Below, piece after piece: positions 2,551 through 53,155 of a stretch of DNA of 64,000 nt (position 1 is its first letter; every line of letters starts with the position of its first letter). The translations under genes were made by a program, and so were the position numbers. Under the pieces are notes generated by a model. The model was not told the origin of the DNA. It worked only from the letters and a program-made list of their open reading frames with translations, and searched no databases. Source of the DNA: a virus. The stretch is taken from positions 145,283 to 209,282 of IMG/VR virus record IMGVR_UViG_3300036944_001289; one strand, 5' to 3'.

Positions 2551-3138
2551 ATGATCATTAAAAATCTCAAAAAATACGATGGTTCTTTGATTCATAAGAG
2601 ATTTGCTTATGAATACTTTAGAAAGAAAACATTACCTATCGGTAATATAGTAGCATTTCGTGGTGAAATGGATGTAACTACTAATCTTATCGATAGCGAA
2701 GATCTACTTAATAACGACTATATTCATAGTGAAGATGCAATAAACTTCTGTTGGGAGATTCCTAATCTCGACGCATTTGGTGCAGTAGCCTTTCAAAGAC
2801 TATTCAATACATATATTGCAAACATTCTATCATCAAAGTATCTCAAAAAGCCCATTGAAGTAGATGGTGATGACTTAATGGTGCATGATGAGTTTGAAGG
2901 TTCAGATGGTTCATTGCAAAAGGTTGGTAAGTGTAGTGTTAGCATTACATATTCTAAAGATGGTATTGCATTAGGGCATACTGGTATCAATATCGATGCT
3001 GGTAGAAAAGCTCCTAACTTTGCATATAGTACTAAGCTTACTGATGAACAAGCTGAACAGTTTATGAAAGACGTTATCGACGTATTTTACGCTACGACAG
3101 ACGATATTTTCATTGCCACGACGAAAGTTATCGTGTAA
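2551..3138 (+). CDS. DUF366 family protein
   Basis: 195 aa, full length for DUF366. Visible family features are the N-terminal DGSLIHKRFAYEYF, the FRGEMDV motif, IDSEDLL, and the central IEVDGDDLMV segment. DUF366 is a lipoate-ligase-like fold of unknown activity found in archaea and large phages. The function here is unknown. The gene lies between glycosyltransferases and replication genes with short spacers. Confidence 0.68.
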   Translation: MIIKNLKKYDGSLIHKRFAYEYFRKKTLPIGNIVAFRGEMDVTTNLIDSEDLLNNDYIHSEDAINFCWEIPNLDAFGAVAFQRLFNTYIANILSSKYLKKPIEVDGDDLMVHDEFEGSDGSLQKVGKCSVSITYSKDGIALGHTGINIDAGRKAPNFAYSTKLTDEQAEQFMKDVIDVFYATTDDIFIATTKVIV

Positions 3139-4676: not shown

Positions 4677-6308
4677 GTGTTAAAAAATCTAGTCTCTTTC
4701 TTTCCCGAAAATTATACACCCAGTAATCAGCAGCAAGCGCTCCTAGAAAAAATAGATAAAGCGTTTGAAGAAAATAAGTTTGTAATATGTAATGCACCTA
4801 CGGGTTCTGGTAAGAGTTTTTTATCTAAAACATTAGGTAATTACTCTACAGAATGTTCTTCCGAATTTAAACAGCTTATTACAAGTTATGATGCGTTTAA
4901 ACAGACATACGATGGTTCGTATGAATATGAACCTGACTGTATGGCAGAAGAACCTTTCGGTTCTTTTGTATTAACAATAACAAAATCTCTTCAAGATCAG
5001 TATCAAAAACTATTTCAAGAAGATGCTATTTTAAAAGGTAAAACCAATTATACATGTCAAGTAGATGATCAATTTGATGTAGACACCGCACCATGCTTAT
5101 TGACACCTAAATTAAAAGAGACATGTTGGCAAAAAAACATGTGCCCTTATTATAATGCGAGAAATGATATACTGACAAGTAGGTTCGGTATCTTAAATTA
5201 TAAGATGTTTCTTTCGTTGCCAGGTCATGTAAAAAGGAAGCAATTTATCATCTGTGATGAAGCTTCTGAATTGGAAGATACATTGGTTAGTCAATTTTCA
5301 GCTACGATTGACCCTGAAAAGCTTAGAATAGCAGGAGCTAAAGTAACACCTCTTATCAATCATACAGACTATAGTCAAGTTCAAAAATGGCTTAATAATA
5401 TATGCATTACGGTAAGTGAGGAAGCTGATCTATTACTTTCTAAACTCCTTTCAAAGAAGAACGATAAAAATGCTCAATCGGATAAAATTAAACTTAATTA
5501 TTTAAGAAGTATACACGGTAGTATTAAAATGATTTTAGACACATGGCACGAATGTGAATATGTAGTACAGAAAGAGGATAAGGTCGTTAAATTAACACCT
5601 CTAAAGGTAGATACTTTATCTAAACATATATTTGAACATGCTGATAAAGTGTTATTAATGTCTGCTACTATAATTGACCATAAGACGTTTGCTAAAACTC
5701 TAGGTATAACTGATTACAAGTATGTAGAGGTTGATAGTACTTTTGATCCTGCTAAAGCTCCAATCTTTATTAATACCAAGCTAAAGCTTAATCATGGCAA
5801 TCTAAAAGATAATCTACCTACGATTGCTAAACAAATACAAGCTATTTGCGATAAACATAAAAACGATAAAGGTATTATACATACACATTCGATGGCAATT
5901 ACTAGTTACTTGCAAGGTTCAATAAAAGGTAAGAGATTCCTTTTTAGATCTGAAGGTCAGAAGAATGAAGTGCTATTAACACAACATGCAGAATCTACAG
6001 AACCTACTGTTGTTGTAAGCCCATCAGTTGCATTTGGTGTTGACTTTAAAGATGATTTAGCTAGATTCCAGATAATAGTAAAAGCAGCATTTCCACCTTT
6101 AGGTGATGCAAGAATAAAGAAGTTATTTGAAATGGATAAACAATGGTACACTGATAAAATGCTTTGTAATTTTGTACAAGCATGTGGTAGAGGTGTTAGA
6201 AGTAAGGATGATCATTGTATAACGTATGTGTTAGATGCGTGTATATATGATGCTATTATTAAAAATAACCGTAATCTACCTAAGTACTTTCTCAATAGAT
6301 TCGTATAA
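4677..6308 (+). CDS. XPD/DinG-like superfamily 2 DNA helicase with Fe-S cysteines
   Basis: 543 aa with a GTG start. Motif I is APTGSGKS (residues 40-47) and the Walker B variant is IICDEASE. Motif III is LLMSATI and motif VI is QACGRGVRSKDD near residue 500. Between motifs I and II four cysteines lie in the pattern C-x13-C-x9-C-x5-C, matching the 4Fe-4S site of XPD, Rad3 and DinG helicases. It is a 5'-3' DNA helicase by family, probably for repair or replication. It is shorter than DinG and lacks a nuclease domain. Confidence 0.85.
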   Translation: MLKNLVSFFPENYTPSNQQQALLEKIDKAFEENKFVICNAPTGSGKSFLSKTLGNYSTECSSEFKQLITSYDAFKQTYDGSYEYEPDCMAEEPFGSFVLTITKSLQDQYQKLFQEDAILKGKTNYTCQVDDQFDVDTAPCLLTPKLKETCWQKNMCPYYNARNDILTSRFGILNYKMFLSLPGHVKRKQFIICDEASELEDTLVSQFSATIDPEKLRIAGAKVTPLINHTDYSQVQKWLNNICITVSEEADLLLSKLLSKKNDKNAQSDKIKLNYLRSIHGSIKMILDTWHECEYVVQKEDKVVKLTPLKVDTLSKHIFEHADKVLLMSATIIDHKTFAKTLGITDYKYVEVDSTFDPAKAPIFINTKLKLNHGNLKDNLPTIAKQIQAICDKHKNDKGIIHTHSMAITSYLQGSIKGKRFLFRSEGQKNEVLLTQHAESTEPTVVVSPSVAFGVDFKDDLARFQIIVKAAFPPLGDARIKKLFEMDKQWYTDKMLCNFVQACGRGVRSKDDHCITYVLDACIYDAIIKNNRNLPKYFLNRFV

Positions 6309-6311
6309 ATA
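6304..6311 (+). promoter_or_regulatory. late promoter TATAAATA
   Basis: Perfect T4-type late box ending 5 bases before the GTG start at 6317. It overlaps the helicase stop codon. Confidence 0.7.
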
Positions 6312-6316
6312 TATTT

Positions 6317-6880
6317 GTGAAGTTCTCTACATATTACAAATTGGATGAGTCTCTCAAGACTAAACTAAAAGCATTAGGATTAGCAGGTCTAGCTGCTTTA
6401 ACACCTTACACTAAAGCTTCAGATATGAGTGTAAATTTTCAGATGCCTGCAACTATCGCACAGTCGCAACGTAATAGGACGGCTTCCAAAACTGCGACAG
6501 ATATAGATATTGTTGCTGCTACGTTATATAAGGAAGCTAGAGGTGAAGGTAAGAAAGGTATGGAGGCTGTAAATGAGGTTATACATAATAGATCTAAAAA
6601 GAAAAAAAAATCTCTATCTCAAATATGTACTGAACCTAAGCAATTCTCATGCTGGAATAATATAGCACCTACAAAAGATGTTATAGACTCTATTGCTAAA
6701 AAAGATCCAAAAAGTTTTTCAATAGCTAAGAAAATTGCATCTGATGATTTAACAAACCATACTAAAGGTGCTGAGTATTACCATACACTAGCTGTAAAGC
6801 CAACGTGGGGACCAAAACTAAAGAAAAGCGGCTACCAAACAGTAATTATAGGTAATCACATTTTTTATTATAAAAAGTAG
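6317..6880 (+). CDS. SleB-like cell-wall hydrolase (Hydrolase_2)
   Basis: 187 aa with a GTG start set by the adjoining late promoter. Residues 60-185 carry the SleB/CwlJ pattern: AATLYKEARGEGKKGMEAVN with the catalytic Glu, then VIHNRS, CTEPKQFSCWN, and a C-terminal GNHIFYY. The family cleaves peptidoglycan glycan strands. The first 45 residues are a separate leader (MKFSTYYKLDE, then an Ala/Leu-rich segment), which looks like a capsid-targeting peptide or a weak membrane segment. It is either the endolysin or a virion-carried wall enzyme; its late promoter suits both. Confidence 0.78.
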   Translation: MKFSTYYKLDESLKTKLKALGLAGLAALTPYTKASDMSVNFQMPATIAQSQRNRTASKTATDIDIVAATLYKEARGEGKKGMEAVNEVIHNRSKKKKKSLSQICTEPKQFSCWNNIAPTKDVIDSIAKKDPKSFSIAKKIASDDLTNHTKGAEYYHTLAVKPTWGPKLKKSGYQTVIIGNHIFYYKK

Positions 6881-6881
6881 A

Positions 6882-7109
6882 CTACTTTTTCTTCTTCTTT
6901 CTAGGTAATCTGAATGTTACTGTAGATATAGATGGATTTAGTCTATCACCTTTAAATCCACTGTACGCAGAGGGTGTAGACTTATTACCAATAAGAGGGT
7001 TCACAGTACCATGATTAGGCATATTAGGAACCTTTACAGGTCTTTTTGTATCTATAGGTGCTCTAAAACCACCCTCCAATAGAAATTTAACTAATTTATT
7101 GAACCCCAT
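6882..7109 (-). CDS. small basic hypothetical protein
   Basis: 75 aa, convergent with the SleB-like gene (1-base gap). The protein is Pro/Gly/Lys-rich and ends RLPRKKKKK. It has its own perfect late promoter 5 bases upstream, which argues that it is real. The start MGFNKLVKFLLEGG resembles the capsid-targeting leader of other late genes here (LLE, then Gly). Possible DNA-binding internal head protein; inference only. Confidence 0.6.
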   Translation of the reverse strand: MGFNKLVKFLLEGGFRAPIDTKRPVKVPNMPNHGTVNPLIGNKSTPSAYSGFKGDRLNPSISTVTFRLPRKKKKK

Positions 7110-7114
7110 ATTAT

Positions 7115-7122
7115 TATTTATA
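7115..7122 (-). promoter_or_regulatory. late promoter TATAAATA
   Basis: Perfect box on the minus strand, 5 bases before the ATG at 7109. Confidence 0.7.
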
Positions 7123-7132
7123 TAATAACAGA

Positions 7133-7495
7133 ATGACTAAAACTAAAACTTTAACCTGCGTAGTTACAGGAAGTACTACTGTTTACTCAGGTGAATTCCT
7201 TGCAAAGAAAATTGAAGAGTATGGTTCTGAAGAAAACTTAGAAAAACGATATATTTGTAAAGAAGTAAAAAGCTTTCTTAAAAAGAGATATAAGATTAAA
7301 GATATTAGAAAAGTATTATCTGTGGATGATAAGATACCACTACCTGATAATGAAACTCTGGTCTTTTTAGAAATGAATTTTAATAGCAGTATTAATACTG
7401 AGAACTCAGCATCTACAACAATAACAGAATTTACATACAATAAGTCAGATAAAGATGTTGAAGAATTTATCAACAAGTATATAATTCAAAAATGA
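7133..7495 (+). CDS. hypothetical protein with small conserved phage domain
   Basis: 120 aa. The N-terminal half (LTCVVTGSTTVYSGEFL, then EEYGSEENLEKRYICKEVK) has the spacing C-x3-G, Y-GS-E, Y-C/A-K seen again in the protein at 60046-60354, so the two share a small domain. Function unknown. It overlaps the next gene by 4 bases. Confidence 0.6.
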   Translation: MTKTKTLTCVVTGSTTVYSGEFLAKKIEEYGSEENLEKRYICKEVKSFLKKRYKIKDIRKVLSVDDKIPLPDNETLVFLEMNFNSSINTENSASTTITEFTYNKSDKDVEEFINKYIIQK

Positions 7496-8013
7496 TACCT
7501 ATATCTTTAGTAGATACACCTGTTAATGTGGAGGAATTTAAAATTTTAACACCAGCAGAAACTAAGTACGCGCTCTTTTTAGGATTTATTATTCGTAATG
7601 AATATGATAACAAAAGGCTAAAAATAGCTGAAAATTTTAAGCCGGTAAAGTTTTTACATGTAAAAAGAAAAGATAATCAAATAACAGAGTGTATACCATT
7701 GTATGGTGTATTATTAACACCTAATAGTGCTATTGTAAACTTAATGAAGACAGTGCGATCACAAGAAAAAGTAAAAGAAATGCCGCTTATAACATACAGA
7801 AACATACTTTCTCAGTATAATTTTTCATGTGATAATACATATTCATTATACAGCGATATGATATACCCAATTGATTTCACAAATTTAAAATCAGTTTGCG
7901 ATGATACATTTAACGAAGATAAAAAAGTATTTCAACACCTACTATCATTAGATGAAAAACATTTTGATTTCCAATCTTTTGCATCATTGAAATTATTAAT
8001 TCTTAACATATAA
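7492..8013 (+). CDS. hypothetical protein
   Basis: 173 aa, mixed alpha/beta, no motif recognised. It is coupled to 7133-7495 by an ATGA overlap and ends 25 bases before nrdB. A late-type box lies between it and nrdB, so it is probably the last gene of an earlier transcription unit. Confidence 0.6.
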   Translation: MIPISLVDTPVNVEEFKILTPAETKYALFLGFIIRNEYDNKRLKIAENFKPVKFLHVKRKDNQITECIPLYGVLLTPNSAIVNLMKTVRSQEKVKEMPLITYRNILSQYNFSCDNTYSLYSDMIYPIDFTNLKSVCDDTFNEDKKVFQHLLSLDEKHFDFQSFASLKLLILNI

Positions 8014-8018
8014 TAGCA

Positions 8019-8026
8019 GATAAATA
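8019..8026 (+). promoter_or_regulatory. late-type promoter GATAAATA
   Basis: One mismatch from TATAAATA, 12 bases before the nrdB ATG; weaker and further away than most copies. Confidence 0.4.
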
Positions 8027-8038
8027 ATAATCTAATTT

Positions 8039-9010
8039 ATGTTATTCGAAGAGCAAATATCACGCAAACCTAACTTGTACCCTTGGACAAAGGAATTTAT
8101 CAAAGCAATGCATAACGGTTTTTGGACAGAAGATGAATTCTCATTTAAATCTGATGTACAGCAATTTAAAGTAAATTTAACTAAACAAGAACAAGATATG
8201 ATAATCAAAGTTCTATCCGCTATAGGGCAAATAGAGGTAGAAGTAAAAACATTCTGGGGAGAGCTTGGTAAGAATCTACCACACCCATCGATTAAAGATC
8301 TTGGGTTTGTTATGGCTAACACCGAAGTTATTCATAATAACGCTTATGAAAAACTTTTAACACTTTTGGGACTAGAAGATATTTTCCAAGAAAATCTCAA
8401 GCTAGACTGGATTCAAGGTAGAGTTAAGTACCTAAAAAAGCACAATCATAGATTTTACAAAGACTCTAAAAAACAATACTTATACGCTATAATTCTATTC
8501 ACATTATATGTTGAAAACGTTTCATTATTTTCTCAGTTTTATATAGTCAACTGGTTTGCAAGATTTAAAAATCTCTTAAAAGATACTGATCAACAAGTCA
8601 AATATACACGTAACGAAGAAAATATACACGCACTAGTAGGTATTAAAATAATTAACACATTGAGAGAAGAATACCCGGAACTTTTTGATAATGAACTCGA
8701 AGAAAGAATACTAAGTGAAGCACGCGAATCTATTAAGGCTGAATCAATCATAATCGATTGGATGGTAGGTGATCTACGTGAAGAAAATGTATCACCAGAT
8801 ATTCTTAAAGAGTTTATTAAAAACAGAATGAATCAATCATTATTAAACATAGGTTTTAAGAGTATATTTGATATAGATCAAGATCTACTAAGCAAAACAA
8901 CCTGGTTTGATGAAGAGTTACTTGGTAATAATATGACCGACTTTTTTCATACTCGACCTGTCGAATACAGCAAAAAAGGGCATTCATTCTCTGAATCTGA
9001 TTTATTTTAA
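8039..9010 (+). CDS. nrdB: ribonucleotide reductase class I, beta subunit
   Basis: 323 aa. Forms the diiron-tyrosyl radical for ribonucleotide reduction together with NrdA. Ligand motifs are visible: E66 in QIEVEVKTFW, then NTEVIHNNAY with E96, H99 and the radical tyrosine Y103, then E159 in YVENVSLF, and NEENIH with E194 and H197. The C-terminal tail SESDLF is the docking peptide for the alpha subunit. It is three bases before nrdA in one operon and supplies dNTPs for phage DNA synthesis. Confidence 0.95.
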   Translation: MLFEEQISRKPNLYPWTKEFIKAMHNGFWTEDEFSFKSDVQQFKVNLTKQEQDMIIKVLSAIGQIEVEVKTFWGELGKNLPHPSIKDLGFVMANTEVIHNNAYEKLLTLLGLEDIFQENLKLDWIQGRVKYLKKHNHRFYKDSKKQYLYAIILFTLYVENVSLFSQFYIVNWFARFKNLLKDTDQQVKYTRNEENIHALVGIKIINTLREEYPELFDNELEERILSEARESIKAESIIIDWMVGDLREENVSPDILKEFIKNRMNQSLLNIGFKSIFDIDQDLLSKTTWFDEELLGNNMTDFFHTRPVEYSKKGHSFSESDLF

Positions 9011-9013
9011 TTT

Positions 9014-10660
9014 ATGGAAACAATATATTGGTTAAACGAGGACTCTAGAACGTACTTGCAGCGGGGATATTTATTACCTGGAGAGACTGCAGAGAATCGT
9101 ATTAGAGATATTGCGGTTTTTGCAGAAGGTATATTACAAATACAAGGATTTGCGAATAAATTTGAAGACTATTTAAAGAAAGGTTTTTATAGCTTATCAA
9201 GCCCTATTTGGAGTAATTTTGGCAGAAAACGTGGCCTACCTATATCATGTTTTGGTTCGTACATAAACGATGACATCAATGATATTCTATTTAAAATAGG
9301 TGAGGTTGGATCAATGTCTAAATCTGGTGGAGGTACTTCCGGTTATTTCGGTAAAGTTAGATCAAGAGGTTCTAAGATCTCTTCTGGAGGTGAATCAACT
9401 GGTGTACATCATCAGTTGACTGTCTTCAACGCTATTACAAACTACATCTCACAAGGTAACGTGCGCAGAGGATCATTTGCTGCATATCTACCAATTGATC
9501 ATGGAGACTTTGATGAGTTTATAAATATAAGATCTGACGGTGATTCTATTCAGGATCTATCAATAGGTGTTTGTATCACAAATGAGTGGATGGAGGATAT
9601 GATTGCTGGCAACACCGAGAAACGTCAACGTTGGGGTAAGGTAATTAAGAAGAGATTCGAATCAGGTTACCCGTACATATTCTTTACAGATAATGCAAAT
9701 GATCAAGCTCCTAAGGTTTATAAAGATAAAGGGTTAAAAATAACTCATTCTAACTTATGCTCTGAAATTATGCTTGCAAATGGTATTGATGAATCATTTG
9801 TATGTGACCTATCATCTCTTAATCTTGAAAAATGGGATGAGTGGAAAGATACAGATGCTGTAGAAGTGCTTACATTCTTTCTGGATGCCGTAATGACTGA
9901 TTTTATTAATAAAACAGAAGGTGACCTATTTTTATCTCACGCACGTAAATTTGCTATCAATCAACGTGCACTAGGTATAGGTGTATTAGGTTGGCATACA
10001 TATTTGCAATCTAAAATGATTGCATTTGAGTCTGTTCAAGCGAAATCATTAAATGCACAAATCTGGAAAAATATAAGAACTAAAGCAGATAATGCATCGC
10101 AGAAATTGGCTGATTTATTTGGAGAACCAGAACTACTTAAAGGTTATGGACGTAGAAATACTACTACACTTGCTATCGCACCTACAACGTCGAGTTCTTT
10201 TATTTTAGGTCAAGTATCACCTTCTATAGAACCATTAAATTCAAATTACTTTGTAAAAGACTTAGCAAAAGGTAAATTTACGTTTAGGAATCCACAATTA
10301 GTAAAGCTATTAGAATCTAAAGATAAAAACAAAGAGGATATTTGGAGATCTATTCTCGTAAAAGGTGGTTCTGTACAGCATTTAGATTTCTTTACGGAAG
10401 ATGAAAAGAATGTATTTAAAACATTTGGAGAGATATCTCAAAAAGAAATTATAATACAAGCTGCTACACGCCAAAAGTACATCGACCAAGGTCAATCCCT
10501 TAATATAATGATACCACCCGATACCAAACCTAAAGATGTAAGTGAACTAACGATCTTTGCGTGGAGAGAAGGTATTAAAGCGCTTTATTATCAAAGAAGT
10601 GCTAACCCAGCTCAGGAGCTGGCGAGAAACATATTAAATTGTCAGTCCTGCCAATCATAA
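9014..10660 (+). CDS. nrdA: ribonucleotide reductase class I, alpha subunit (short form)
   Basis: 548 aa against about 750 for NrdA, because the N-terminal ATP-cone is absent: the protein starts directly with the catalytic-domain segment. Active-site residues are intact: C79 in ISCFG, N247-L-C249-S-E251 in HSNLCSEIM, C264 in SFVCDLSS, the radical-transfer pair Y525-Y526 in ALYYQRS, and the C-terminal thiol pair C543 and C546. Loss of the cone should remove overall dATP inhibition. It is the last gene of the plus-strand operon before a two-way terminator. Confidence 0.95.
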   Translation: METIYWLNEDSRTYLQRGYLLPGETAENRIRDIAVFAEGILQIQGFANKFEDYLKKGFYSLSSPIWSNFGRKRGLPISCFGSYINDDINDILFKIGEVGSMSKSGGGTSGYFGKVRSRGSKISSGGESTGVHHQLTVFNAITNYISQGNVRRGSFAAYLPIDHGDFDEFINIRSDGDSIQDLSIGVCITNEWMEDMIAGNTEKRQRWGKVIKKRFESGYPYIFFTDNANDQAPKVYKDKGLKITHSNLCSEIMLANGIDESFVCDLSSLNLEKWDEWKDTDAVEVLTFFLDAVMTDFINKTEGDLFLSHARKFAINQRALGIGVLGWHTYLQSKMIAFESVQAKSLNAQIWKNIRTKADNASQKLADLFGEPELLKGYGRRNTTTLAIAPTTSSSFILGQVSPSIEPLNSNYFVKDLAKGKFTFRNPQLVKLLESKDKNKEDIWRSILVKGGSVQHLDFFTEDEKNVFKTFGEISQKEIIIQAATRQKYIDQGQSLNIMIPPDTKPKDVSELTIFAWREGIKALYYQRSANPAQELARNILNCQSCQS

Positions 10661-10668
10661 CAATAATA

Positions 10669-10702
10669 AAAAAAAGATATCATTTAAATGATATCTTTTT
10701 TT
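10669..10702. terminator. two-way rho-independent terminator
   Basis: A perfect palindrome with A7 on the left, GATATCATTT/AAATGATATC in the middle and T7 on the right, between the convergent ends of nrdA and 10704-11063. It can stop transcription from both sides. Confidence 0.9.
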
Positions 10703-10703
10703 A

Positions 10704-11063
10704 TTATTTTTTAGAAATATTATCTTTGATATATTCTATATCTTTTTGTATCAAACCTATATCTCTTTCCATATTTATGATTTTATTATCATAAATTATC
10801 TTACCATCTTCGGTAATGATATTGCTCAATCTCTTTTCAATATTTTTTAGTACCGGTACTATGTCTCCCATCTGTCTCTCAAGATTATTAGTCTTAGATT
10901 CTACCACGACTATTCTATTTGTTAACTCTTTAAACTCGTTTTGTTTAACGTAGTTACTGTTTAACCAAACAACACATGTTGCTATAAAAAAAGTACCTAC
11001 AACTTTAACTATATTGATTGTAGTAAACAACTCTGATAATGTAGAGTTACTTGATGACGGCAT
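10704..11063 (-). CDS. membrane-anchored coiled-coil protein
   Basis: 119 aa. One hydrophobic segment near residues 18-36 (IVKVVGTFFIATCVVWL) is followed by a long charged helix with heptad-like spacing to the end. Late promoter 6 bases before the start. The N-in single-pass topology with an outer coiled coil resembles spanins or baseplate accessory proteins, but no family is recognised. Confidence 0.6.
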   Translation of the reverse strand: MPSSSNSTLSELFTTINIVKVVGTFFIATCVVWLNSNYVKQNEFKELTNRIVVVESKTNNLERQMGDIVPVLKNIEKRLSNIITEDGKIIYDNKIINMERDIGLIQKDIEYIKDNISKK

Positions 11064-11069
11064 ATAATC

Positions 11070-11077
11070 TATTTATT
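11070..11077 (-). promoter_or_regulatory. late promoter AATAAATA
   Basis: Minus-strand box 6 bases before the ATG at 11063. Confidence 0.6.
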
Positions 11078-11081
11078 AGTT

Positions 11082-13367
11082 TCACTTACGTTCGTTGTGT
11101 ATACCTTCAGATACTGATCGTTGTGACCCATCGTTTAATTCTTTAGCAGCAACTCTTACAGCATCATTAGTTGCGAGTAATGTGAGAGGTAAGTTTGCAA
11201 ATGCATGAGAATGCGGATAACATTCAATTATATTAGTACCCGTACTGGTATATTCCAATGTTGCAGGACTTCCGTTTATTTTAACATTTACTACTGTACC
11301 TGTAACAAATTTACCAAATAGTGTAACTTGTTCAGTCACCTGATATTCCTTAGGTGCTGTTATATGCTGTATGTAAGTTTCACCTTCTACGTGTAGACCT
11401 CCACCAATAATAACATTATTATTAACACCGAGACTTTCGTTTATTAGTACTTGTCTTTGATTTTTATTTCTTAATCTTAGGATTTCAGCAGATATGTTAA
11501 TTGTTTTTGCATCTATATTAATTTCATTAGATGATGCAATATTTACTTGCTCGCCTACTATATTAGTAACAGTGCCTGTTATGTTAGTTTGTCCAAGAGA
11601 TTTAATATTGATGCCGCCAGCACCTACTAAAACGTTCATTCTATTACATGCTGTTATCGTATAATTACCACCTGGTAAGTCTTGCACGTGTACCAACTCT
11701 ACTAATGGACTCTCTTTTTTGTTTACATATACACCAAAATCATCAACAAGTACTTCATTGCTTAACATTTTACCGATACCATCGTATCGTATACTACCGA
11801 AATCATTAAACGTTAAACCTATAGTTTCAATTTTATGCTTGGCAATTTGCGATATCTCACTACCACCAACACCAAGTTGTTTTTCTATTTCTGTTAGCTG
11901 TTGTATATTAAGTTCTATTAACTGGTTTAAAATATCTTTTTGATCTTCTACATCCCAATTACCACCTTGTGAAGATGTGCTCTTACCTACACCACCAGGT
12001 CCCCATTCAGTGTTAGATTCAGCAAGATATCTTGAAGTAGGTGGTAATGATCTATCAACAGTAGAACCTAAATTATTATTAATATTATAAGCACCGTCAG
12101 ATGATGCATTTGTTGTTGTGTTATATGTGTCAAATGATTGACTACCTGTAATAGTATCATACGTTACTGATCCATCTGTTACTGGATGTGCAGCAAAAGC
12201 ACCTGATCTTGTTTGCAGTAAACTATTACGTTTTAGTCTTATATTACCGTCTGCATCTAAAACGTTATTATTATCCGTACGCTTAATTTCAAATAGTTGC
12301 TTATTTTCATGTATTATAGCATAAGTTAGTTTCCACTGATCAAATAGTTCACTATTTAATAACCCGACTTTTTTATACTTATCACGCATTACTATTTCAT
12401 CTAAGCTCTTACCGGTATATACATTATTAAAACCTCTTACCGTTTCATACTGATCATTTAGTACTAGCTTTTGGCTATTCTTTGTAGCGAGCTCTATATT
12501 AGATTGATTATTAAATTCTTTAAACGACCCTGAAAAATGCGTAAACTTTAACTTCTCATTTAAGTCTGTATTAACAACCTCTATAGTACCACCTTTTTGA
12601 TTTATAACAAATTTATTTCTGTACGTATCTACATTATTATTATATTCGGTTTGTATCTTATTTTCGAAACTACCAGGGTAATCTATACCACCATTTTCAG
12701 AATTAAAAATTCCCTGCCAATCTATATTACCGTATGTTGTGGCAAAATAAATAGGTGCTGTAGGGTTACCATCTCTGAAAAATACCCATACATGTGAACC
12801 TACACTTGGTATAGCGAAAGAGCCTTTTGCTTTATTAGAATATGATGAAGGTAAATACTCGTAAGATAAAGGATTAGGTCTATTAATATTATTTGAAGCA
12901 GAATCAAACGCGTCTTGAAGTCTATATGTTTGATCTTCGTAGAAAGCAGCAGGTTTCCCAGGTATATCTTTTGAGTCAATATCTGGCGATAGCTGATCTG
13001 CAAAATTAGAGTCCGAAGTAGTACCTACTTGCCTTGTATTATTATACCTACCACTAGTGTTCTCACCTACTAATGGGCATGCACATTCTGCCCAAGGTAA
13101 TATACGTTTTAATTCTTCAGCAACGTTTATGATTGTAGAACTAGTCGAAGATTCACCACCTGTCTCTGTTTGTTGCTTTAATATCTGTGTTAGTACAGAT
13201 TGTATATTATCACCTAAAAACTTAAATGATTTATTAGTTTTCTGTTGTATCCATCTTTCGTACACAGTAGGTGAAATATAAGGTATGAATACCTTAACTT
13301 TACCTGATTTGTCTGGATCGTTATTTTGTATAACTATACCTACATGATTGCCGTAATATTTTTTCAT
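11082..13367 (-). CDS. 5: baseplate central spike, gp5-like, without lysozyme domain
   Basis: 761 aa. The N-terminus (GNHVGIVIQNNDPDKSGKVK, then VFIPYISP) and FAIPSVGSHVWVFFRDGNP around residues 180-210 are the split OB-fold of T4 gp5/VgrG spikes. The last 250 residues are repeats of short strands (VNIASSNEINIDAKTINISA), expected for the triple-stranded beta-helix needle. No T4-like lysozyme domain lies between them, so wall digestion must come from elsewhere, possibly the SleB-like protein. The start overlaps the stop of 13364-14446 by 4 bases. Confidence 0.82.
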   Translation of the reverse strand: MKKYYGNHVGIVIQNNDPDKSGKVKVFIPYISPTVYERWIQQKTNKSFKFLGDNIQSVLTQILKQQTETGGESSTSSTIINVAEELKRILPWAECACPLVGENTSGRYNNTRQVGTTSDSNFADQLSPDIDSKDIPGKPAAFYEDQTYRLQDAFDSASNNINRPNPLSYEYLPSSYSNKAKGSFAIPSVGSHVWVFFRDGNPTAPIYFATTYGNIDWQGIFNSENGGIDYPGSFENKIQTEYNNNVDTYRNKFVINQKGGTIEVVNTDLNEKLKFTHFSGSFKEFNNQSNIELATKNSQKLVLNDQYETVRGFNNVYTGKSLDEIVMRDKYKKVGLLNSELFDQWKLTYAIIHENKQLFEIKRTDNNNVLDADGNIRLKRNSLLQTRSGAFAAHPVTDGSVTYDTITGSQSFDTYNTTTNASSDGAYNINNNLGSTVDRSLPPTSRYLAESNTEWGPGGVGKSTSSQGGNWDVEDQKDILNQLIELNIQQLTEIEKQLGVGGSEISQIAKHKIETIGLTFNDFGSIRYDGIGKMLSNEVLVDDFGVYVNKKESPLVELVHVQDLPGGNYTITACNRMNVLVGAGGINIKSLGQTNITGTVTNIVGEQVNIASSNEINIDAKTINISAEILRLRNKNQRQVLINESLGVNNNVIIGGGLHVEGETYIQHITAPKEYQVTEQVTLFGKFVTGTVVNVKINGSPATLEYTSTGTNIIECYPHSHAFANLPLTLLATNDAVRVAAKELNDGSQRSVSEGIHNERK

Positions 13368-14446
13368 ACCAATGAACCTTTAATTGTTTTAATTACTAAT
13401 TTTTTTGGAGGTGTTTTAGCTTCACCTTCTTGTATTAAAGTAAGTCTTTCTCGTAGTGTTTTATTAATATTCTGTATATATGTTTCTGATGACATCGTAC
13501 CGTTAGTTTTTTGAACTGCAAATTTAACTATCATACACTGTTTATTGTTTACATCGAGATTAAATTTTGTATTATCTAGATCTAATTCATTCTGAGTATA
13601 TAATTTATCTAAACCGTTAACGTTTTCAACTAACGTGCTATACGTTCTCTTTATGATATTACCTGCAGTAATCTTATCGTCATCAATATATGGTTTAGCA
13701 TTAGTAAATAAGAAAACCAAACCTGCTTGTATGTCCTTAAGCAACAGAGTACTTTCGTTATAAAGATTATCTGTATCTTTTTCAAATTTTTCGTCTTGAG
13801 GTGCTGATACAGTTTGCAAAGCGCTTAGAGATGTTGTTTGTGTATTTACTATTTGTTTATTACTTTGTGAATCAGAAGCTTTTGTTGTACCTTTACTTAT
13901 AGTATCGCTTGTTATCTCTTGCGTTTTCTTATCTTTATATTCAGTATTTTCTGATACTTTTTTAATTTCACTGTTTGTTAAATTTTTAGTACTAGAAACG
14001 CTAGTAGACATAACTGAAGATTTTATAGCTGTAGTTTCTTGAGTCGATTGTAACGCTTCTGCAGTTGTTTCATCTTCGCAATCAAAAGCTGATTTCATAT
14101 TTTGATACTGTTTGGATATCTCATTTTTTGCAGATATAATACCATTTGCAATGCTTGTTTTGATTCCCTTTAAATCTTCAGGTATACCTGCTTTTAAATC
14201 AGTACCTAATCCCGATACTAAACCACCTAGATTAGAGAGTTTACCTGTAGCATCATTTGCAAAATTACCTATTTGGTTTCCTACCTGCCTTGTAAGATCT
14301 CCAGCCATGTCACCAAAACCTTCAGCAATTTTTTTTGCCTTTAATTTTGGTGATAAGCCTTCTAAGCTACTTGGTGTTAATTTCTTAAACTGTTCGTTTA
14401 TGTTAGATAAGCCTGGTAAGTTGGATAACTTATTTTTACATGACAT
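13364..14446 (-). CDS. putative baseplate or hub-associated structural protein
   Basis: 360 aa. The N-terminal 130 residues are Gly/Leu/Lys-rich with short helices (LSPKLKAKKIAEGFGDMAGD), the middle is a low-complexity Ser/Thr/Lys linker, and residues 235-360 form a folded domain. It is translationally coupled to the gp5-like spike (ATGA), so a baseplate role is likely. No T4 homologue recognised. A 9-bp inverted repeat abuts its start. Confidence 0.6.
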   Translation of the reverse strand: MSCKNKLSNLPGLSNINEQFKKLTPSSLEGLSPKLKAKKIAEGFGDMAGDLTRQVGNQIGNFANDATGKLSNLGGLVSGLGTDLKAGIPEDLKGIKTSIANGIISAKNEISKQYQNMKSAFDCEDETTAEALQSTQETTAIKSSVMSTSVSSTKNLTNSEIKKVSENTEYKDKKTQEITSDTISKGTTKASDSQSNKQIVNTQTTSLSALQTVSAPQDEKFEKDTDNLYNESTLLLKDIQAGLVFLFTNAKPYIDDDKITAGNIIKRTYSTLVENVNGLDKLYTQNELDLDNTKFNLDVNNKQCMIVKFAVQKTNGTMSSETYIQNINKTLRERLTLIQEGEAKTPPKKLVIKTIKGSLV

Positions 14447-14447
14447 A

Positions 14448-14470
14448 TCAATATTTAAAGAAAATATTGA
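14448..14470. promoter_or_regulatory. inverted repeat at the divergent start region
   Basis: TCAATATTT and AAATATTGA are separated by 5 bases, just upstream of the minus-strand start at 14446 and 30 bases before the plus-strand start at 14500. Possible operator or hairpin in the divergent control region. Confidence 0.35.
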
Positions 14471-14499
14471 TTTTTCAAATTTACATATATAATGAAACT

Positions 14500-15303
14500 A
14501 TGAATCATAAGATTTTAATTTCACATGAATCACCTATATCAATACTGACCGACTCCCTTCAGTTTAACGATTATGATTACTGTCTAGTACATCTTTTAGA
14601 ACAGAAACCTGAATATGCTGAGTTTTTTAAAAGGAGTAAAGCACTCAATCGTGAAATCCTACTAGATAATAGTATATTTGAATTAGGTACATCGTTCGAA
14701 CCTTCTAAATTTGCTAAGTATGTAGAATCACTACAACCTAATTGGTATATAGTACCAGATGTTTTAGAAGATGGTTATGCTACGATAGAATCGTTCAATA
14801 AGTTTACGTCTACATACAAAGATCTACCTGGATTAAAAATAGGTGCAGTACAAGGTAAATGTTATGATGAATTAGTTGACTGTTATAAGTATATGTCGCA
14901 AAATGCTGACTATATTGCTATAAGTTTTGATTTTAGCTACTATATCGGTACAGGTATTGGTTTATCAAAATTAGATAGATGGTGTGATGGTAGAAAGCGA
15001 TTTATTAAATCTTTGATAAATGATGGTGTATGGGATTGGAATAAACCACACCATTTACTAGGTTGTTCTTTAGCAAAAGAGTTTAGCTATTACGTGAATA
15101 ATAACATCTATAATATTAGATCGATTGATACATCAAACCCTGTTGTAGCTGGTATCAAAGGCATGAGATATAATGGAGATTTAGGGTTAAATGATAAACC
15201 TTCGATTAAACTTGCTGACTTAATTGACCACGAAGTAACAACTGATGAATTGGAAATTATTAATTATAATACACGTCAATTTAAAAACATATTAAAAAGA
15301 TGA
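14500..15303 (+). CDS. TGT-fold (tRNA-guanine transglycosylase / DpdA-like) protein
   Basis: 267 aa when started at the ATG at 14500; an in-frame ATG at 14440 would overlap the opposing gene start and is not preferred. The order of motifs ILLDNSIFELG (about residues 53-63), WYIVPDVLEDG, KIGAVQGK, YIAISFDFSYY, HHLLGCSLAKEF and IRSIDTSNPV fits a TIM-barrel transglycosylase-like family common in phages. DpdA members exchange guanine in DNA for a 7-deazaguanine base. The presence of queF two genes downstream supports that reading. The exact acceptor is inferred. Confidence 0.55.
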   Translation: MNHKILISHESPISILTDSLQFNDYDYCLVHLLEQKPEYAEFFKRSKALNREILLDNSIFELGTSFEPSKFAKYVESLQPNWYIVPDVLEDGYATIESFNKFTSTYKDLPGLKIGAVQGKCYDELVDCYKYMSQNADYIAISFDFSYYIGTGIGLSKLDRWCDGRKRFIKSLINDGVWDWNKPHHLLGCSLAKEFSYYVNNNIYNIRSIDTSNPVVAGIKGMRYNGDLGLNDKPSIKLADLIDHEVTTDELEIINYNTRQFKNILKR

Positions 15304-15869
15304 TAATAACATTTACAGGTACACAATCAGTAGGTAAAAGTACTTTGCTTTCAGCTCTTCAAAAAGATGAAAGATATAAAGACTGGATGTTTGAACCGGA
15401 AATAACGCGTAGTCTAAAAGAGAAGTTTGGACTGAATATAAATGAATCAGGTGATTCAATAACGCAGTTATTCGTTCTAAATTCGCATTTAGAAAATGTA
15501 GTAAAACATAAGAACAATAATGTTATTTTAGATAGATGTATAGTTGATGGGCTTGTATATACAACATATCAGTATATGACAGGTAAGATTCATACAGATG
15601 TATTTTTGCATGCAAAGTATATGTTCGATCTTATTATAGATAAATATGATATAATATTTCATATTGAGCCTGAATTTCCTGTTGTTGATGATGGTGTAAG
15701 AAGTATAGATGAAAAGTTTAGAACAACTATAGCTTCATTGATAAACGAAGCCTTACAATCTAATAGTGTAGTTAGAACTAAGATAGTAAAGTTAACAGGT
15801 ACTGTAGAAGAAAGATTGAAACAAATAGATATAGCTATTGAAAACTTAAAAGCACAAAATATAATATAA
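15300..15869 (+). CDS. P-loop kinase, AAA_28/NadR-like
   Basis: 189 aa. The Walker A is FTGTQSVGKST (residues 5-14), and a nucleotide-kinase lid-like region follows ILDRCIVDGLVYTTYQYM. The pattern matches AAA_28 proteins related to the NadR nicotinamide-riboside kinase domain; phage members are often suggested to be nucleotide kinases. It overlaps the TGT-like gene by 4 bases and lies 2 bases from queF, so it may phosphorylate a deazaguanine nucleoside or simply be a nucleotide kinase. Substrate unknown. Confidence 0.65.
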   Translation: MIITFTGTQSVGKSTLLSALQKDERYKDWMFEPEITRSLKEKFGLNINESGDSITQLFVLNSHLENVVKHKNNNVILDRCIVDGLVYTTYQYMTGKIHTDVFLHAKYMFDLIIDKYDIIFHIEPEFPVVDDGVRSIDEKFRTTIASLINEALQSNSVVRTKIVKLTGTVEERLKQIDIAIENLKAQNII

Positions 15870-15871
15870 AC

Positions 15872-16792
15872 ATGGCACTTAAAAAACTCGACAATAAAAA
15901 CATAAGCAAGCACCTTGGTAAGGTATCACAATACAAATCAACATATGATGCTTCTCTCTTGGTAAGAGAGCCAAGATCATCTAATAGAGTACATCTTAAT
16001 ATTAAAGATGATAACTTACCCTTTGTAGGTTATGATACTTGGAATGCATATGAAGTTAGTGCATTAACAGATAGTGGTTTACCTGTTGCAGGTGTAGCTA
16101 AAATTGTTTACCCTGCTTCAAGCAAATATATCGTAGAATCAAAGTCTATTAAACTTTACTTTAATTCTTTTAATATGACTAAACTAGGGTTTCATAGCGA
16201 TGCAGTTCTTGATAAAATAGCAATTACTGCTTCAGAAGATCTCTCAAAACTACTCGAAACAGATGTACAAGTTTACGTACATTCGAATGCTGAAGTACTA
16301 CGTCAACAAAGCACTGCATATACCGAATGGAATCACAAAAAATACTCAACAATAGAGGATGAGTATAATGTTAATGATGTAACCTTTGAAATCTATAAGG
16401 AAACACCAGAACTACTACAAGTAGTAGATAGTGTTAACGATACAGTTCACTATCATAGTGCTCTACTTAAGAGTAATTGTAGAGTAACATCACAACCAGA
16501 CTGGGGTGATGTATATATAACCATCACAAAAAAAGATAAAACTATTGACCCTATCTCTTTACTAAAGTATATAATATCATTTAGAGATGAGTGCCACTTT
16601 CATGAAGAGATATGTGAGACAATTTATAAACGCATATATGATAAGCTAACACCTGATGAACTTACGGTAAGATGTTTGTATGCACGTAGGGGTGGTATTG
16701 ATATAAACCCTGAGCGTGCAAATAAAGAGGTATTATTAAGTACTAATCTACAACTTAATTGTATACCACATATTAAAACACCTAAGCAATAA
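15872..16792 (+). CDS. queF: NADPH-dependent 7-cyano-7-deazaguanine (preQ0) reductase, long QueF type
   Basis: 306 aa, close to the 282-aa E. coli type. Diagnostic segments are IVESKSIKLYFNSFNMT (E89-S90-K91), LLKSNCRVTSQPDWGD with the catalytic C203 and D210, FRDECHFHEEICE with H244 and E245, and RRGGIDINPERAN. The enzyme reduces preQ0 to preQ1 in queuosine synthesis. In phages it occurs with DpdA-type proteins that place preQ1-like bases in DNA. All catalytic residues are present. No queC, queD, queE or folE gene lies in the window, so preQ0 must come from the host or from genes elsewhere. Confidence 0.9.
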   Translation: MALKKLDNKNISKHLGKVSQYKSTYDASLLVREPRSSNRVHLNIKDDNLPFVGYDTWNAYEVSALTDSGLPVAGVAKIVYPASSKYIVESKSIKLYFNSFNMTKLGFHSDAVLDKIAITASEDLSKLLETDVQVYVHSNAEVLRQQSTAYTEWNHKKYSTIEDEYNVNDVTFEIYKETPELLQVVDSVNDTVHYHSALLKSNCRVTSQPDWGDVYITITKKDKTIDPISLLKYIISFRDECHFHEEICETIYKRIYDKLTPDELTVRCLYARRGGIDINPERANKEVLLSTNLQLNCIPHIKTPKQ

Positions 16793-50425: not shown

Positions 50426-50501
50426 TGGTGCCTTCGTTGGGATTCGAACCCAAATAAACGCTTTAGAAGAGCGTTGTCCTAATCCATTGAACGACAAAGG
50501 C
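50426..50501 (-). tRNA. tRNA-Arg (UCU)
   Basis: Cloverleaf with acceptor GCCTTTG/CGAAGGC, anticodon stem ACGCT/AGCGT, loop CTTCTAA (anticodon UCU, reads AGA), T-arm TGGGTTCGAATCCCA and encoded CCA. AGA is a common codon in this AT-rich genome. Confidence 0.93.
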
Positions 50502-50505
50502 ATAT

Positions 50506-51177
50506 TCATTTTACTAAAAGTGATTTTATATACTCCTCAGTTAGTTGTTCTTTAGTAAGAAAAATAATATTATTATACTGTTCCTTGAGATGTTGAATTT
50601 TTGTTGACTGTACTTGCCTAGCAAAGGGGTTCTTAGGATCTAGGAATAGGTTATAATCTGGTAAAAAAAAGTCACTAAAATAATTATGTTCTATACCTTC
50701 ACTATCTTTCCATCTTATTGGTTTGGGACGTATCCATAAAACTTTTAAATTATCAAGTATATTAGCAAGATTTAACTCCCAACTAGAATCTAGCAGTACA
50801 CCTTTGTACTTAATAGTTTTCTTCTTTAACCGTCTATGTGGTGAGTTTAGTGCTATATTTCGTAATTTTATTTTTGTCTCTTCAGATTGTGATCTTTTTC
50901 CATATTTTACATAAATCAATGCTGCATTCTCTTTTCGATTTCGTTTTTTAATTAGCCCATTTTTAGATGCTTTGCATATAGTTAAGGCTGTGCAGTTGAA
51001 TTTAGTCGCACATTCAGCATAACTTTTACCAGTATCATAATAGTTTTGGACTTCTTCCCAATTTATATCATCATAACGAGTATATGAACATGTTTTACAC
51101 CATCTTAAATGATTTCTTTTGGCGCCAACTTTAAGTCCACTTATATCTTTATCACATGTAGGACAGTATATTATCAT
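50506..51177 (-). CDS. homing endonuclease with zinc finger and PD-(D/E)xK-like core
   Basis: 223 aa from the ATG at 51177, set by the box at 51183. N-terminal zinc site C-x2-C...C-x2-C (YCPTCDKDISG, RWCKTC), then a helix-turn-helix (SYAECATKFNCTALTICKAS). A nuclease-like part follows (LDSSWELNLANILDN, IRWKDSEG, SDFFLPDYNLFLDPK). It resembles endonucleases that target tRNA or rRNA genes. It sits 4 bases from tRNA-Arg and next to a broken tRNA 5' half, which fits a mobile element. Confidence 0.68.
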   Translation of the reverse strand: MIIYCPTCDKDISGLKVGAKRNHLRWCKTCSYTRYDDINWEEVQNYYDTGKSYAECATKFNCTALTICKASKNGLIKKRNRKENAALIYVKYGKRSQSEETKIKLRNIALNSPHRRLKKKTIKYKGVLLDSSWELNLANILDNLKVLWIRPKPIRWKDSEGIEHNYFSDFFLPDYNLFLDPKNPFARQVQSTKIQHLKEQYNNIIFLTKEQLTEEYIKSLLVK

Positions 51178-51182
51178 GTAAC

Positions 51183-51190
51183 TATTTATC
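51183..51190 (-). promoter_or_regulatory. late-type promoter GATAAATA
   Basis: Five bases before the ATG at 51177; supports that start. Confidence 0.5.
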
Positions 51191-51192
51191 GG

Positions 51193-51242
51193 ATAGAGCA
51201 ACGAATCAAGGCGCTTGCTCTATACAACTGAGCTACAGTGAC
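51193..51242 (-). tRNA. 5' half of a tRNA gene (remnant) folded into a hairpin
   Basis: GTCACTG-TA-GCTC...GAGC-A-AGCGCCTTGATT gives an acceptor strand, D-arm and the start of an anticodon arm. It then stops matching and continues as TTGCTCTAT, which pairs with ATAGAGCAA. No 3' half follows. It looks like a tRNA cut at its anticodon loop beside the homing endonuclease. Confidence 0.5.
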
Positions 51243-51250
51243 ATAAAATG

Positions 51251-51571
51251 TTAAACTAGTTTTTCGATTTTGTATCGAGAGTTCTGTGTGGTTGCAATGC
51301 CATCCTTATACTCAATAACCTTTGAGGTAGAAAATACACCGTCGCGACCAGCTGGATGTTTCTTATTCGCAACACGAGCAAGCCAAATAGGTGAACCTAC
51401 TTTAATCTCTTCTATAAGAGAACCAAGAGTCCAGTAATCGTCGGTGATTGAAGAGGCTTTACTAAACTCGTTAAGTGCCTCAATTTTGGTGATCTTATAA
51501 AGAGTTATACCAAACCTAGCAAAGCGGCTATGAGCCTTTACAAACTCATTGATGTATTCTTGTTCGGTCAT
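51251..51571 (-). CDS. hypothetical protein
   Basis: 106 aa, with a strand-rich C-terminal half (GSPIWLARVANKKHPAGRDG). Early promoter element at 51589. No family recognised. Confidence 0.55.
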   Translation of the reverse strand: MTEQEYINEFVKAHSRFARFGITLYKITKIEALNEFSKASSITDDYWTLGSLIEEIKVGSPIWLARVANKKHPAGRDGVFSTSKVIEYKDGIATTQNSRYKIEKLV

Positions 51572-51588
51572 TTTATAATTTTATGAAA

Positions 51589-51593
51589 GTTCC
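51589..51593 (-). promoter_or_regulatory. early promoter element GGAAC
   Basis: GGAACTTTCATAAAATTATA before the ATG at 51571. The bases upstream (51600-51675) fold into stems (CCAAGC/GCTTGG; CCAGC/GCTGG), probably the end of the preceding unit. Confidence 0.45.
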
Positions 51594-51677
51594 ACCAGCC
51601 CGTTTTTATTGAGGTGGTCGCTGGCTCTCCCTCAGTCGATCATATCCCCAAGCTTTATGGGCTTGGTTCTTGAATGG

Positions 51678-52106
51678 TTAGCTGACAAATACGTTCTCGG
51701 GATTAGCTTCAATATACTCCCCGATTTGCTTAAAAGTTAACTCTCGGTCGTTCATATCTGCAAGACTACCAAACTTATCACCTTGAACAGTTGCAGCTTT
51801 CTTAAACTTACCAACACAATTGCGTAATTTAAGTAATGTTCTTGCGCTATTAGGTAATGTATGACCATCAATATCATATTTAATAAAGGGTAATGCACCA
51901 TGTGGCTCCTCTATCGTTTTGGGTAGCTTTAATTCACCTGTTTCGTTAGCAAGTTTGCAAGCTAGACCAAGACAGCAATACACAGCTGTCTTATTTAACC
52001 GATTAACGGTATGTAGTCGGCTCTTACCTTGACGAAAACGTCCAGATTTAAGAGCATCAATCCAGAGACGTTGAAATGGTGTAAAATTATATGGTTGTTT
52101 GTTCAT
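51678..52106 (-). CDS. conserved phage hypothetical protein (CCLGLAC type)
   Basis: 142 aa. FTPFQRLWIDALKSGRFRQG and AVYCCLGLACKLA, then a central LPNSARTLLKL and DMNDRELTFKQIGEYI. This is a widespread short phage family of unknown role. It is a tandem paralogue of 52103-52489, overlapping it by 4 bases. Confidence 0.65.
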   Translation of the reverse strand: MNKQPYNFTPFQRLWIDALKSGRFRQGKSRLHTVNRLNKTAVYCCLGLACKLANETGELKLPKTIEEPHGALPFIKYDIDGHTLPNSARTLLKLRNCVGKFKKAATVQGDKFGSLADMNDRELTFKQIGEYIEANPENVFVS

Positions 52107-52489
52107 GTTATATTATTGAAGTAACGTTGAGGATTTTGTCGAATTTTAGCAGCAAGACATTTATGAGATTCACCCATATCGTTCAATACTGCGAGATCAT
52201 CTCCGCGTTTATCTACTAAGTTAAGCGCAGTTTGAACTGATTTTGGTAAATAACTTCTCCCACCATCAAAAGACACAACAGGTTTACCTAATGCAGCTGA
52301 TACTGACATTTTCTTTGAAACCTTTACTCCATTCTCACGTGCAACAACACAAGCAACACCGAGACAACAATAACTAACCGTCTTACGTTTTATATTGCGT
52401 GTTGCAAGGTGATTTTTACCTTGACGAAAACGTCCAGTTTCGAGAGCATTAATCCAAGCTTCTTGTAAAGGTGTAAAATTGTATTTCAT
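52103..52489 (-). CDS. conserved phage hypothetical protein (CCLGVAC type)
   Basis: 128 aa. FTPLQEAWINALETGRFRQG, VSYCCLGVACVVA, YLPKSVQTALNL, VLNDMGESHKCLAAKI: same layout as its downstream paralogue. First gene after the tRNA region, with an early-type element at 52509. Confidence 0.65.
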   Translation of the reverse strand: MKYNFTPLQEAWINALETGRFRQGKNHLATRNIKRKTVSYCCLGVACVVARENGVKVSKKMSVSAALGKPVVSFDGGRSYLPKSVQTALNLVDKRGDDLAVLNDMGESHKCLAAKIRQNPQRYFNNIT

Positions 52490-52508
52490 ACTTGTATATG
52501 TTATTCTT

Positions 52509-52513
52509 GTTCC
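52509..52513 (-). promoter_or_regulatory. early promoter element GGAAC
   Basis: GGAACAAGAATAACATAT, about 20 bases before the ATG at 52489. Confidence 0.4.
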
Positions 52514-52546
52514 TGATGCTATTCAGGATGTATGTAATTAAAAAAT

Positions 52547-52631
52547 TGGTGCCGCAGGCCGGACTCGAACCGGCACGCCGTTAAGGCAACAGATTTTAAG
52601 TCTGTAGTGTCTACCATTCCACCACTGCGGC
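52547..52631 (-). tRNA. tRNA-Leu (UAA)
   Basis: Type II cloverleaf: acceptor GCCGCAG/CTGCGGC, anticodon stem ACAGA/TCTGT, loop CTTAAAA (anticodon UAA, reads UUA), long variable arm TGCCTTAACGGCGT, T-arm GCCGGTTCGAGTCCGGC, encoded CCA. Confidence 0.95.
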
Positions 52632-52637
52632 ATTAAT

Positions 52638-52704
52638 CTCTCAGGTGACACTAACTATTAACCCATTACTCTAATTATTAACAAACAACATTATCACCTG
52701 AGAG
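52638..52704 (-). ncRNA. structured block closed by an 11-bp stem
   Basis: CTCTCAGGTGA and TCACCTGAGAG enclose 45 AT-rich bases, directly before tRNA-Leu on the minus strand. Confidence 0.45.
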
Positions 52705-52729
52705 AAAATTAAAAAAAGAACTAAATGAA

Positions 52730-53144: not shown

Positions 53145-53155
53145 CAAAAAACTAA

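Follow-up and report, generated by a model that had tools for sequence, protein, structure and literature searches.

The 64,000-nucleotide stretch of DNA analyzed here (the window; bases 145283-209282 of the 209282-bp virus record IMGVR_UViG_3300036944_001289) carries three adjacent genes that we read, with a probability of about 0.75, as the terminal part of a phage pathway replacing DNA guanine by preQ1 (7-aminomethyl-7-deazaguanine), with a small kinase as a dedicated partner. We are highly confident that the genes belong to a 7-deazaguanine DNA modification pathway, and deoxy-preQ1 (dPreQ1) is its likely main product. In the scheme that we propose, FolE2, QueD, a QueE variant, and QueC would convert GTP to preQ0 (7-cyano-7-deazaguanine), QueF would convert preQ0 to preQ1, and a DpdA3-type enzyme with the fold of tRNA-guanine transglycosylase (TGT) would swap guanine for preQ1 in the phage's own DNA. 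The kinase would act on a product of this exchange, phosphorylating a (deoxy)nucleoside or nucleotide of guanine or deazaguanine. DNA containing dPreQ1 is predicted to be present, probably at a high level, and the replacement of guanine might be near complete.

A candidate 7-deazaguanine DNA modification cassette at window positions 14500-16792 had been proposed in an earlier note on this DNA, and the proposal is supported by a fold match of the first gene product to TGT and DpdA, by preQ0 genes in the same record, and by the reductase motif and catalytic residues of QueF. The three packed open reading frames for a TGT-like protein, an AAA_28 kinase, and a long QueF are as that note described them (Table 1). 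The first two overlap by 4 bp (ATGA), and only 2 bp separate the kinase gene from that of QueF. An alternative upstream start of the first frame lies at 14440; relatives in our alignment open at the 14500 ATG. The block occupies the plus strand and is flanked on both sides by minus-strand genes; judging by gene order, the upstream one is presumably of the baseplate type and the downstream one a capsid gene of the gp23 type. Because the DpdA-kinase-QueF order is repeated in well over 100 distinct contigs, it lies far beyond chance. No preQ1 riboswitch or other RNA family exceeded its gathering score near the operon, and the T4-type late promoter TATAAATA has the frequency expected by chance.

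The 267-amino-acid product of the first gene matches no family in Pfam or NCBIfam, and a PDB sequence search with its profile returned nothing real, so that only the fold search tied it to TGT. An AlphaFold model built from an alignment of 33 rows (predicted local distance difference test score, pLDDT, 93.5; predicted template modeling score, pTM, 0.91) was compared with the PDB by Foldseek. The best 16 matches were TGT chains (top E value 7e-9), and rank 17 was DpdA 7ui4, a DNA preQ0 insertase. A protein without this fold would have told against the earlier proposal; the model matches both TGT and DpdA. Residues D56, D87, Q118, G188, and D210 are invariant in 195 distinct relatives and presumably correspond to TGT D102, D156, Q203, G230, and D280, a mapping made by motif order and strand-end placement rather than from superposed coordinates. 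The putative Asp nucleophile (D210) and Asp general base (D56) are thus both invariant and in TGT order. The TGT zinc site of three Cys and one His is absent, and no conserved Cys was found after D210 in the alignment of relatives.

The window protein is 45% identical over 95% of its length to a protein of Campylobacter phage CP220, its best-characterized close relative by sequence, and 48% identical to one of Flavobacterium phage vB_FspM_immuto_2-6A (NC_055915; hereafter immuto), whose gene is labeled DNA guanine transglycosylase in GenBank. In a DpdA tree all three fall in one clade, with a long CP220 branch of unsure exact placement. The window transglycosylase is accordingly predicted to be of the CP220 and immuto type. 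We take this subfamily to be DpdA3 as used by Cui et al. in 2023, with CP220 as a typical member, and on that understanding the window enzyme appears DpdA3-like. Low net charge was considered as an argument against DNA binding by this protein and was dropped, as the DNA-acting DpdA of phage 9g is equally acidic (-7.7 vs -6.0).

The third gene encodes a protein predicted to be an NADPH-dependent reductase of preQ0 to preQ1. Both Pfam domains of the long form pass their cut-offs (QueF_N PF14819, 3e-31; QueF PF14489, 3e-23), and the best structure match has an E value of 1e-43, to structures that are presumably of the Vibrio cholerae type. The catalytic residues listed in the earlier note (C203, D210, H244, and E245) are all present, and together with the NADPH-site motif E89-S-K-S-I-K they are invariant in 160 of 160 distinct relatives.

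Lying between these two genes is a P-loop kinase whose assignment to AAA_28 (PF13521) stands at 5e-17. The suggestion that a kinase at this position is unusual did not hold, for it is kept between DpdA and QueF across the whole phage clade. Its AlphaFold model (pLDDT 89.5) appears deoxynucleoside-kinase/NadR-like in fold, in that Foldseek places deoxyadenosine kinase, deoxyguanosine/deoxycytidine kinase, and NadR first and thymidylate kinases after them. The enzyme is probably active, because the P-loop (G12-K13), the DR..D motif (D78-R79, D83; DRC..D), and the DGxRS motif (D131-G132-x-R134-S135; DDGxRS) are conserved among its relatives. A role within the purine nucleotide metabolism of the deazaguanine pathway seems likely. 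Some 2 kb downstream from the QueE variant, at record 137305-138093 on the plus strand, the phage encodes a second AAA_28 kinase (PF13521 5e-8, phrog_2107).

The earlier note had called for a search for folE, queD, queE, and queC. In the complete record we found queD and queC as anticipated, FolE2 in the place of FolE, and queE as a variant; neither canonical FolE nor Pfam Radical_SAM had a match in the 209-kb record. The preQ0 genes are scattered across the record (Table 1). Because FolE2, QueD, the QueE variant, and QueC are encoded together with QueF, the route from GTP to preQ1 would be complete, and the phage is predicted to make preQ1 by itself. No formyltransferase was found in the record, which makes preQ1 the expected end product.

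Table 1. Positions of the cassette genes and of the predicted preQ0 genes
Feature	Position	Strand	Size and basis
TGT-fold DpdA-type gene	window 14500-15303	+	267 aa; open reading frame, AlphaFold model, Foldseek
P-loop kinase (AAA_28) gene	window 15300-15869	+	189 aa; Pfam PF13521, AlphaFold model, Foldseek
QueF, long two-domain form	window 15872-16792	+	306 aa; Pfam PF14819 + PF14489
QueC	record 110536-111288	-	
FolE2	record 129065-130060	-	above NCBIfam cut-off
QueD	record 132837-133469		
QueE variant	record 134560-135330		PHROG 3e-44; Cys triad C-x3-C-x11-C

The kinase is a fixed part of the cassette and not an oddity of the window phage. A scan of IMG/VR gave 61 loci, and additional scans, whose queries were the kinase, the formyltransferase, and the transglycosylases of immuto and CP220, gave more. 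Because the kinase and formyltransferase queries bias this set, we read the linkage in both directions, from DpdA to kinase and from kinase to DpdA. Among 198 loci with distinct DpdA sequences, 159 carry kinase and QueF together, and each of the 74 loci newly fetched with the kinase query has DpdA. The kinase lies within 50 bp of DpdA in 91 of the 110 loci having both genes, and in 110 of 114 the QueF start is at most 50 bp from the kinase (some contigs are counted twice in both tallies). The arrangements found are DpdA-kinase-QueF (type A), DpdA-formyltransferase-(extra genes)-kinase-QueF (type B, which includes immuto), DpdA-kinase in Campylobacter phages, and DpdA-QueC-QueD-QueE-FolE in loci without kinase or QueF (type C). 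In the DpdA tree, type C loci, which lack the kinase, group together with a support of 100, and every kinase-bearing locus is on the other side. Only 13 loci were found in 84,980 cellular species genomes, all on contigs whose titles name metagenome bins or uncultured isolates and most with other pathway genes beside DpdA; we read them as phage contigs. The cassette is rarely broken up, as in locus L029 (7815-16909), where about 6 kb of mainly opposite-strand genes part DpdA from formyltransferase-kinase-QueF. The annotations of several GenBank phage records, with GTP cyclohydrolase for QueF and thymidylate kinase or NadR regulator for the kinase, are probably misleading.

The extra genes that relatives carry in their cassettes suggest a link to the handling of guanine nucleotides. 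Between formyltransferase and kinase, many type B loci carry either DUF5664 (PF18909, E value 1e-22; 19 of 198 loci) or c21 (phrog_1485, function unknown; 13 of 198), while a MazG-like pyrophosphohydrolase (phrog_671) is present in immuto-type and type C loci (62 of 198). These three are mutually exclusive, no locus among the 198 having two of them. Since profile comparison found no homology between c21, DUF5664, and the MazG-like family, their functional equivalence would follow from position and mutual exclusion alone. The DUF5664 protein of Arthrobacter phage Wayne by itself converts dATP, dUTP, and dGTP to monophosphates, and DmtZ from the same phage group swaps the base of a deoxynucleoside monophosphate (PMC12884076). 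In three distinct loci a GMP reductase lies between formyltransferase and kinase (L032, 11385-12356, plus strand; also L035 and L041), which scores 319 bits, the best of all models, against a cut-off of 344. Hypoxanthine-guanine phosphoribosyltransferase (HGPRT) genes lie near DpdA of the kinase-less clade, and xanthine-guanine phosphoribosyltransferase (XGPRT)-like genes lie near others. In the record of the window phage we found no match to DUF5664 (PF18909), to Pfam MazG (PF03819), or to the c21 profile, the MazG negative being weak because PF03819 had no match in any sequence searched and so missed even the immuto MazG-like gene, which only PHROGs recognized.

Further observations concern the surroundings of such genes. 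In the type A relative L156 (221-kb record), DUF5664 lies outside the cassette (9659-9991, minus strand), near a deoxyribosyltransferase-like Nuc_deoxyri_tr2 gene (10838-11323, minus strand) and beside replication genes and QueC, a combination reminiscent of DUF5664 and the NDT-like DmtZ in Z-genome phages. In the same record an intein (its ends reading CLDINTVVKTPNG... and ...FFANGILTHN) seems to interrupt a DnaB-type helicase gene (6092-9031, minus strand), and an endonuclease-like frame lies between these ends. In locus L171 a LOG-like gene with a nucleoside-5'-monophosphate phosphoribohydrolase motif (8536-9240, plus strand) occupies the cassette slot. An HD gene upstream of the CP220 pair was considered as a dGTPase; because it matches HDIG and polynucleotide-kinase families only, it was left out of the count of dGTP hydrolases.

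That DNA is the target is suggested by relatives and by phages with QueF. Deoxyguanosine (dG) is reported to be 100% replaced by 2'-deoxy-7-amido-7-deazaguanosine (dADG) in phages CP220 and CPt10 (PMC8306585, which cites Crippen 2019). In Vibrio phage 6E351A, which has QueF in its deazaguanine cluster, dPreQ1 amounts to 15% of dG by mass spectrometry (PMC12028318), and the DNA of Dp-1 and HVTV-1 contains dPreQ1 (PMC6884629). Among the closest known systems, immuto has the same gene order (DpdA 48%, kinase 33%, and QueF 48% identity) and folE, queD, and queE upstream of its cluster. However, in immuto a formyltransferase separates DpdA from the kinase, and DpdA has a MazG-like neighbor. Neither gene was found in the window phage, which uses FolE2 and has scattered preQ0 genes. 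CP220 and CPt10 share the homologous DpdA (45%) and the adjacent kinase (37%), but have no QueF near this pair, which would explain why their base stays at the preQ0/ADG level, and have an HD and polynucleotide-kinase-like gene upstream. Vibrio phages KVP40, nt-1, and 6E351A possess a homologous long QueF (about 42%) and the preQ0 pathway; in contrast, neither DpdA nor the kinase of the window has a counterpart among their matches, and their transglycosylase is of another subfamily (DpdA2 type) without such a kinase. Finally, Z-genome phages (PurZ/PurZ0, DUF5664, MazZ, DmtZ; PMC12884076, PMC8342488) also replace a whole base, and DUF5664 and enzymes of the nucleotide pool are seen again in cassettes related to that of the window phage, but the modified base there is 2-aminoadenine and no TGT-fold enzyme is involved.

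The presence of the kinase can be accounted for in more than one way. It is possible, though we would place it below even odds, that free dGMP or dG is the substrate on which the DpdA3-type enzyme exchanges the base, that the product, a dPreQ1 nucleotide or nucleoside, is then phosphorylated by the kinase, and that polymerase inserts dPreQ1 triphosphate, a TGT-fold counterpart of the Z-genome route. If exchange occurs on dGMP or dG, then the kinase would make the modified nucleotide, and a dGTP hydrolase would be both a supplier and a remover of competitor. This would fit a kinase that is inseparable from DpdA in a clade including the fully substituted CP220 lineage. It would also fit DUF5664 next to the kinase in relatives, since draining dGTP would hinder any route in which dG must be polymerized first, and other relatives have the MazG-like gene or c21 in its place. 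A precedent is the base exchange on deoxyribose-5-phosphate by DmtZ (PMC12884076). Nevertheless, none of DUF5664, Pfam MazG, and c21 was detected in the record of the window phage, DUF5664 is common among phages and prefers dATP, and the kinase-less DpdA clade is left unexplained. Moreover, Crippen and colleagues reportedly found no dADG phosphates in infected cells (2019), Cui and colleagues are said to have taken the presence of the transglycosylase as a sign of post-replicative modification (2023), and all TGT and DpdA enzymes known to us act on polynucleotides. The fuller claim, that preQ1 exchange occurs on free deoxynucleotides, that the kinase leads to a deoxynucleoside triphosphate (dNTP) precursor while relatives clear dGTP through DUF5664, MazG-like protein, or c21, and that guanine is hence replaced before replication, is doubtful. 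Alternatively, DpdA may act on replicated DNA, with the kinase returning the released guanine to the pool for GTP-fed preQ0 synthesis or dNTPs, and with phosphoribosyltransferases and GMP reductase as partners in relatives. We regard this, too, as a tentative reading, with odds that are not in its favor. TGT chemistry frees one guanine per swap, the HGPRT, XGPRT-like, and GMP reductase genes described above would suit such recycling, and it agrees with the published view of DpdA (PMC6884629). However, a dGTP-hydrolyzing gene within the cassette of relatives is then hard to explain, the kinase fold is closer to nucleoside kinases than to guanylate kinase, and no purine phosphoribosyltransferase was found in the window phage, in which the only Pribosyltran match is ribose-phosphate pyrophosphokinase-like.

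Three other explanations were considered. Phage QueF and QueF-L are hard to tell apart by sequence similarity (PMC6884629), and the window protein could be a QueF-L-type amidinotransferase with an archaeosine-like product (dG+). The two-domain bacterial architecture, the ESKS NADPH-site motif, and the invariant H244 and E245 make this very improbable, as does the finding of dPreQ1 in phages with comparable genes (PMC6884629, PMC12028318). A TGT-fold enzyme with a full preQ1 pathway might in principle serve tRNA queuosine or the supply of preQ1 to the host rather than phage DNA. This is very improbable for a small DpdA-type protein without the conserved cysteines of the TGT zinc site, whose closest relatives sit in phages with modified DNA and whose 13 matches in cellular genome sets are all from metagenome-bin or uncultured-isolate contigs. 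Among the best matches of the kinase is the NadR kinase domain, and the phage carries a Nampt/Prs cluster elsewhere, at record 10.4-15.0 kb. A nicotinamide riboside kinase of NAD salvage that sits in the cassette by chance is nevertheless very improbable, given that the enzyme keeps its place between DpdA and QueF in hundreds of loci, that it occurs beside DpdA in CP220 without QueF, and that the NAD genes lie over 140 kb from it in the record.

Several points weigh against the replacement of DNA guanine by preQ1 with the kinase as partner. The phage is known from sequence alone. Significant sequence similarity of the window DpdA to DpdA1 of phage 9g was not found, hhalign of the family alignment against the 9g protein giving a probability of 0.2%, so that fold and motifs alone link the two. 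The related type C clade of DpdA has no such kinase nearby, and the kinase fold is compatible with several substrates, since its matches extend to deoxynucleoside kinases, NadR, and thymidylate kinases alike. The QueE variant falls under the NCBIfam cut-offs, and QueF, at 3.8e-74 and 249.7 bits against TIGR03138, falls under the equivalog cut-off of 293.45, which is a naming threshold and not a catalytic feature.

Phage deazaguanine clusters, phage QueF, and this transglycosylase subfamily are already known. We found no description in the available literature of the constant kinase, of the slot with its mutually exclusive hydrolases, or of what they imply for pre-replicative replacement. Full replacement of guanine poses a puzzle, in that modified triphosphates have reportedly not been seen, yet exchange on finished DNA would be demanding for an enzyme. 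The constant kinase suggests that the swap may involve free nucleotides and not finished DNA only. With the kinase locked between transglycosylase and QueF in about 160 distinct lineages, and with dNTP hydrolases and GMP reductase in relatives, the question becomes testable with three small proteins. If exchange does take place on nucleotides, the view of all phage 7-deazaguanines as post-replication insertions would be overturned, and complete replacement of dG would be explained. DNA with dPreQ1 or formylated preQ1 is predicted for many uncultured phages, which bears on restriction evasion and on sequencing and cloning methods.

Other parts of the record hold features of separate interest. 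An apparent NAD-salvage cluster (record 10445-15033, minus strand) comprises a Nampt-like gene, an AAA protein, a fusion of HAD and Nuc_deoxyri_tr2 domains, and a ribose-phosphate pyrophosphokinase-like gene. The deoxyribosyltransferase-like domain of the record sits in this cluster, as does the sole Pribosyltran match, which proved to be Prs-like rather than a gene of guanine salvage. Three phage tRNA genes, for Arg (TCT), Leu (TAA), and Met (CAT), lie at window 50426-53582 on the minus strand. A gene at window 2551-3138 on the plus strand encodes a DUF366 protein (PF04017, 4e-23) and shares a block with genes for a methyltransferase and for glycosyltransferases at 191-2530.

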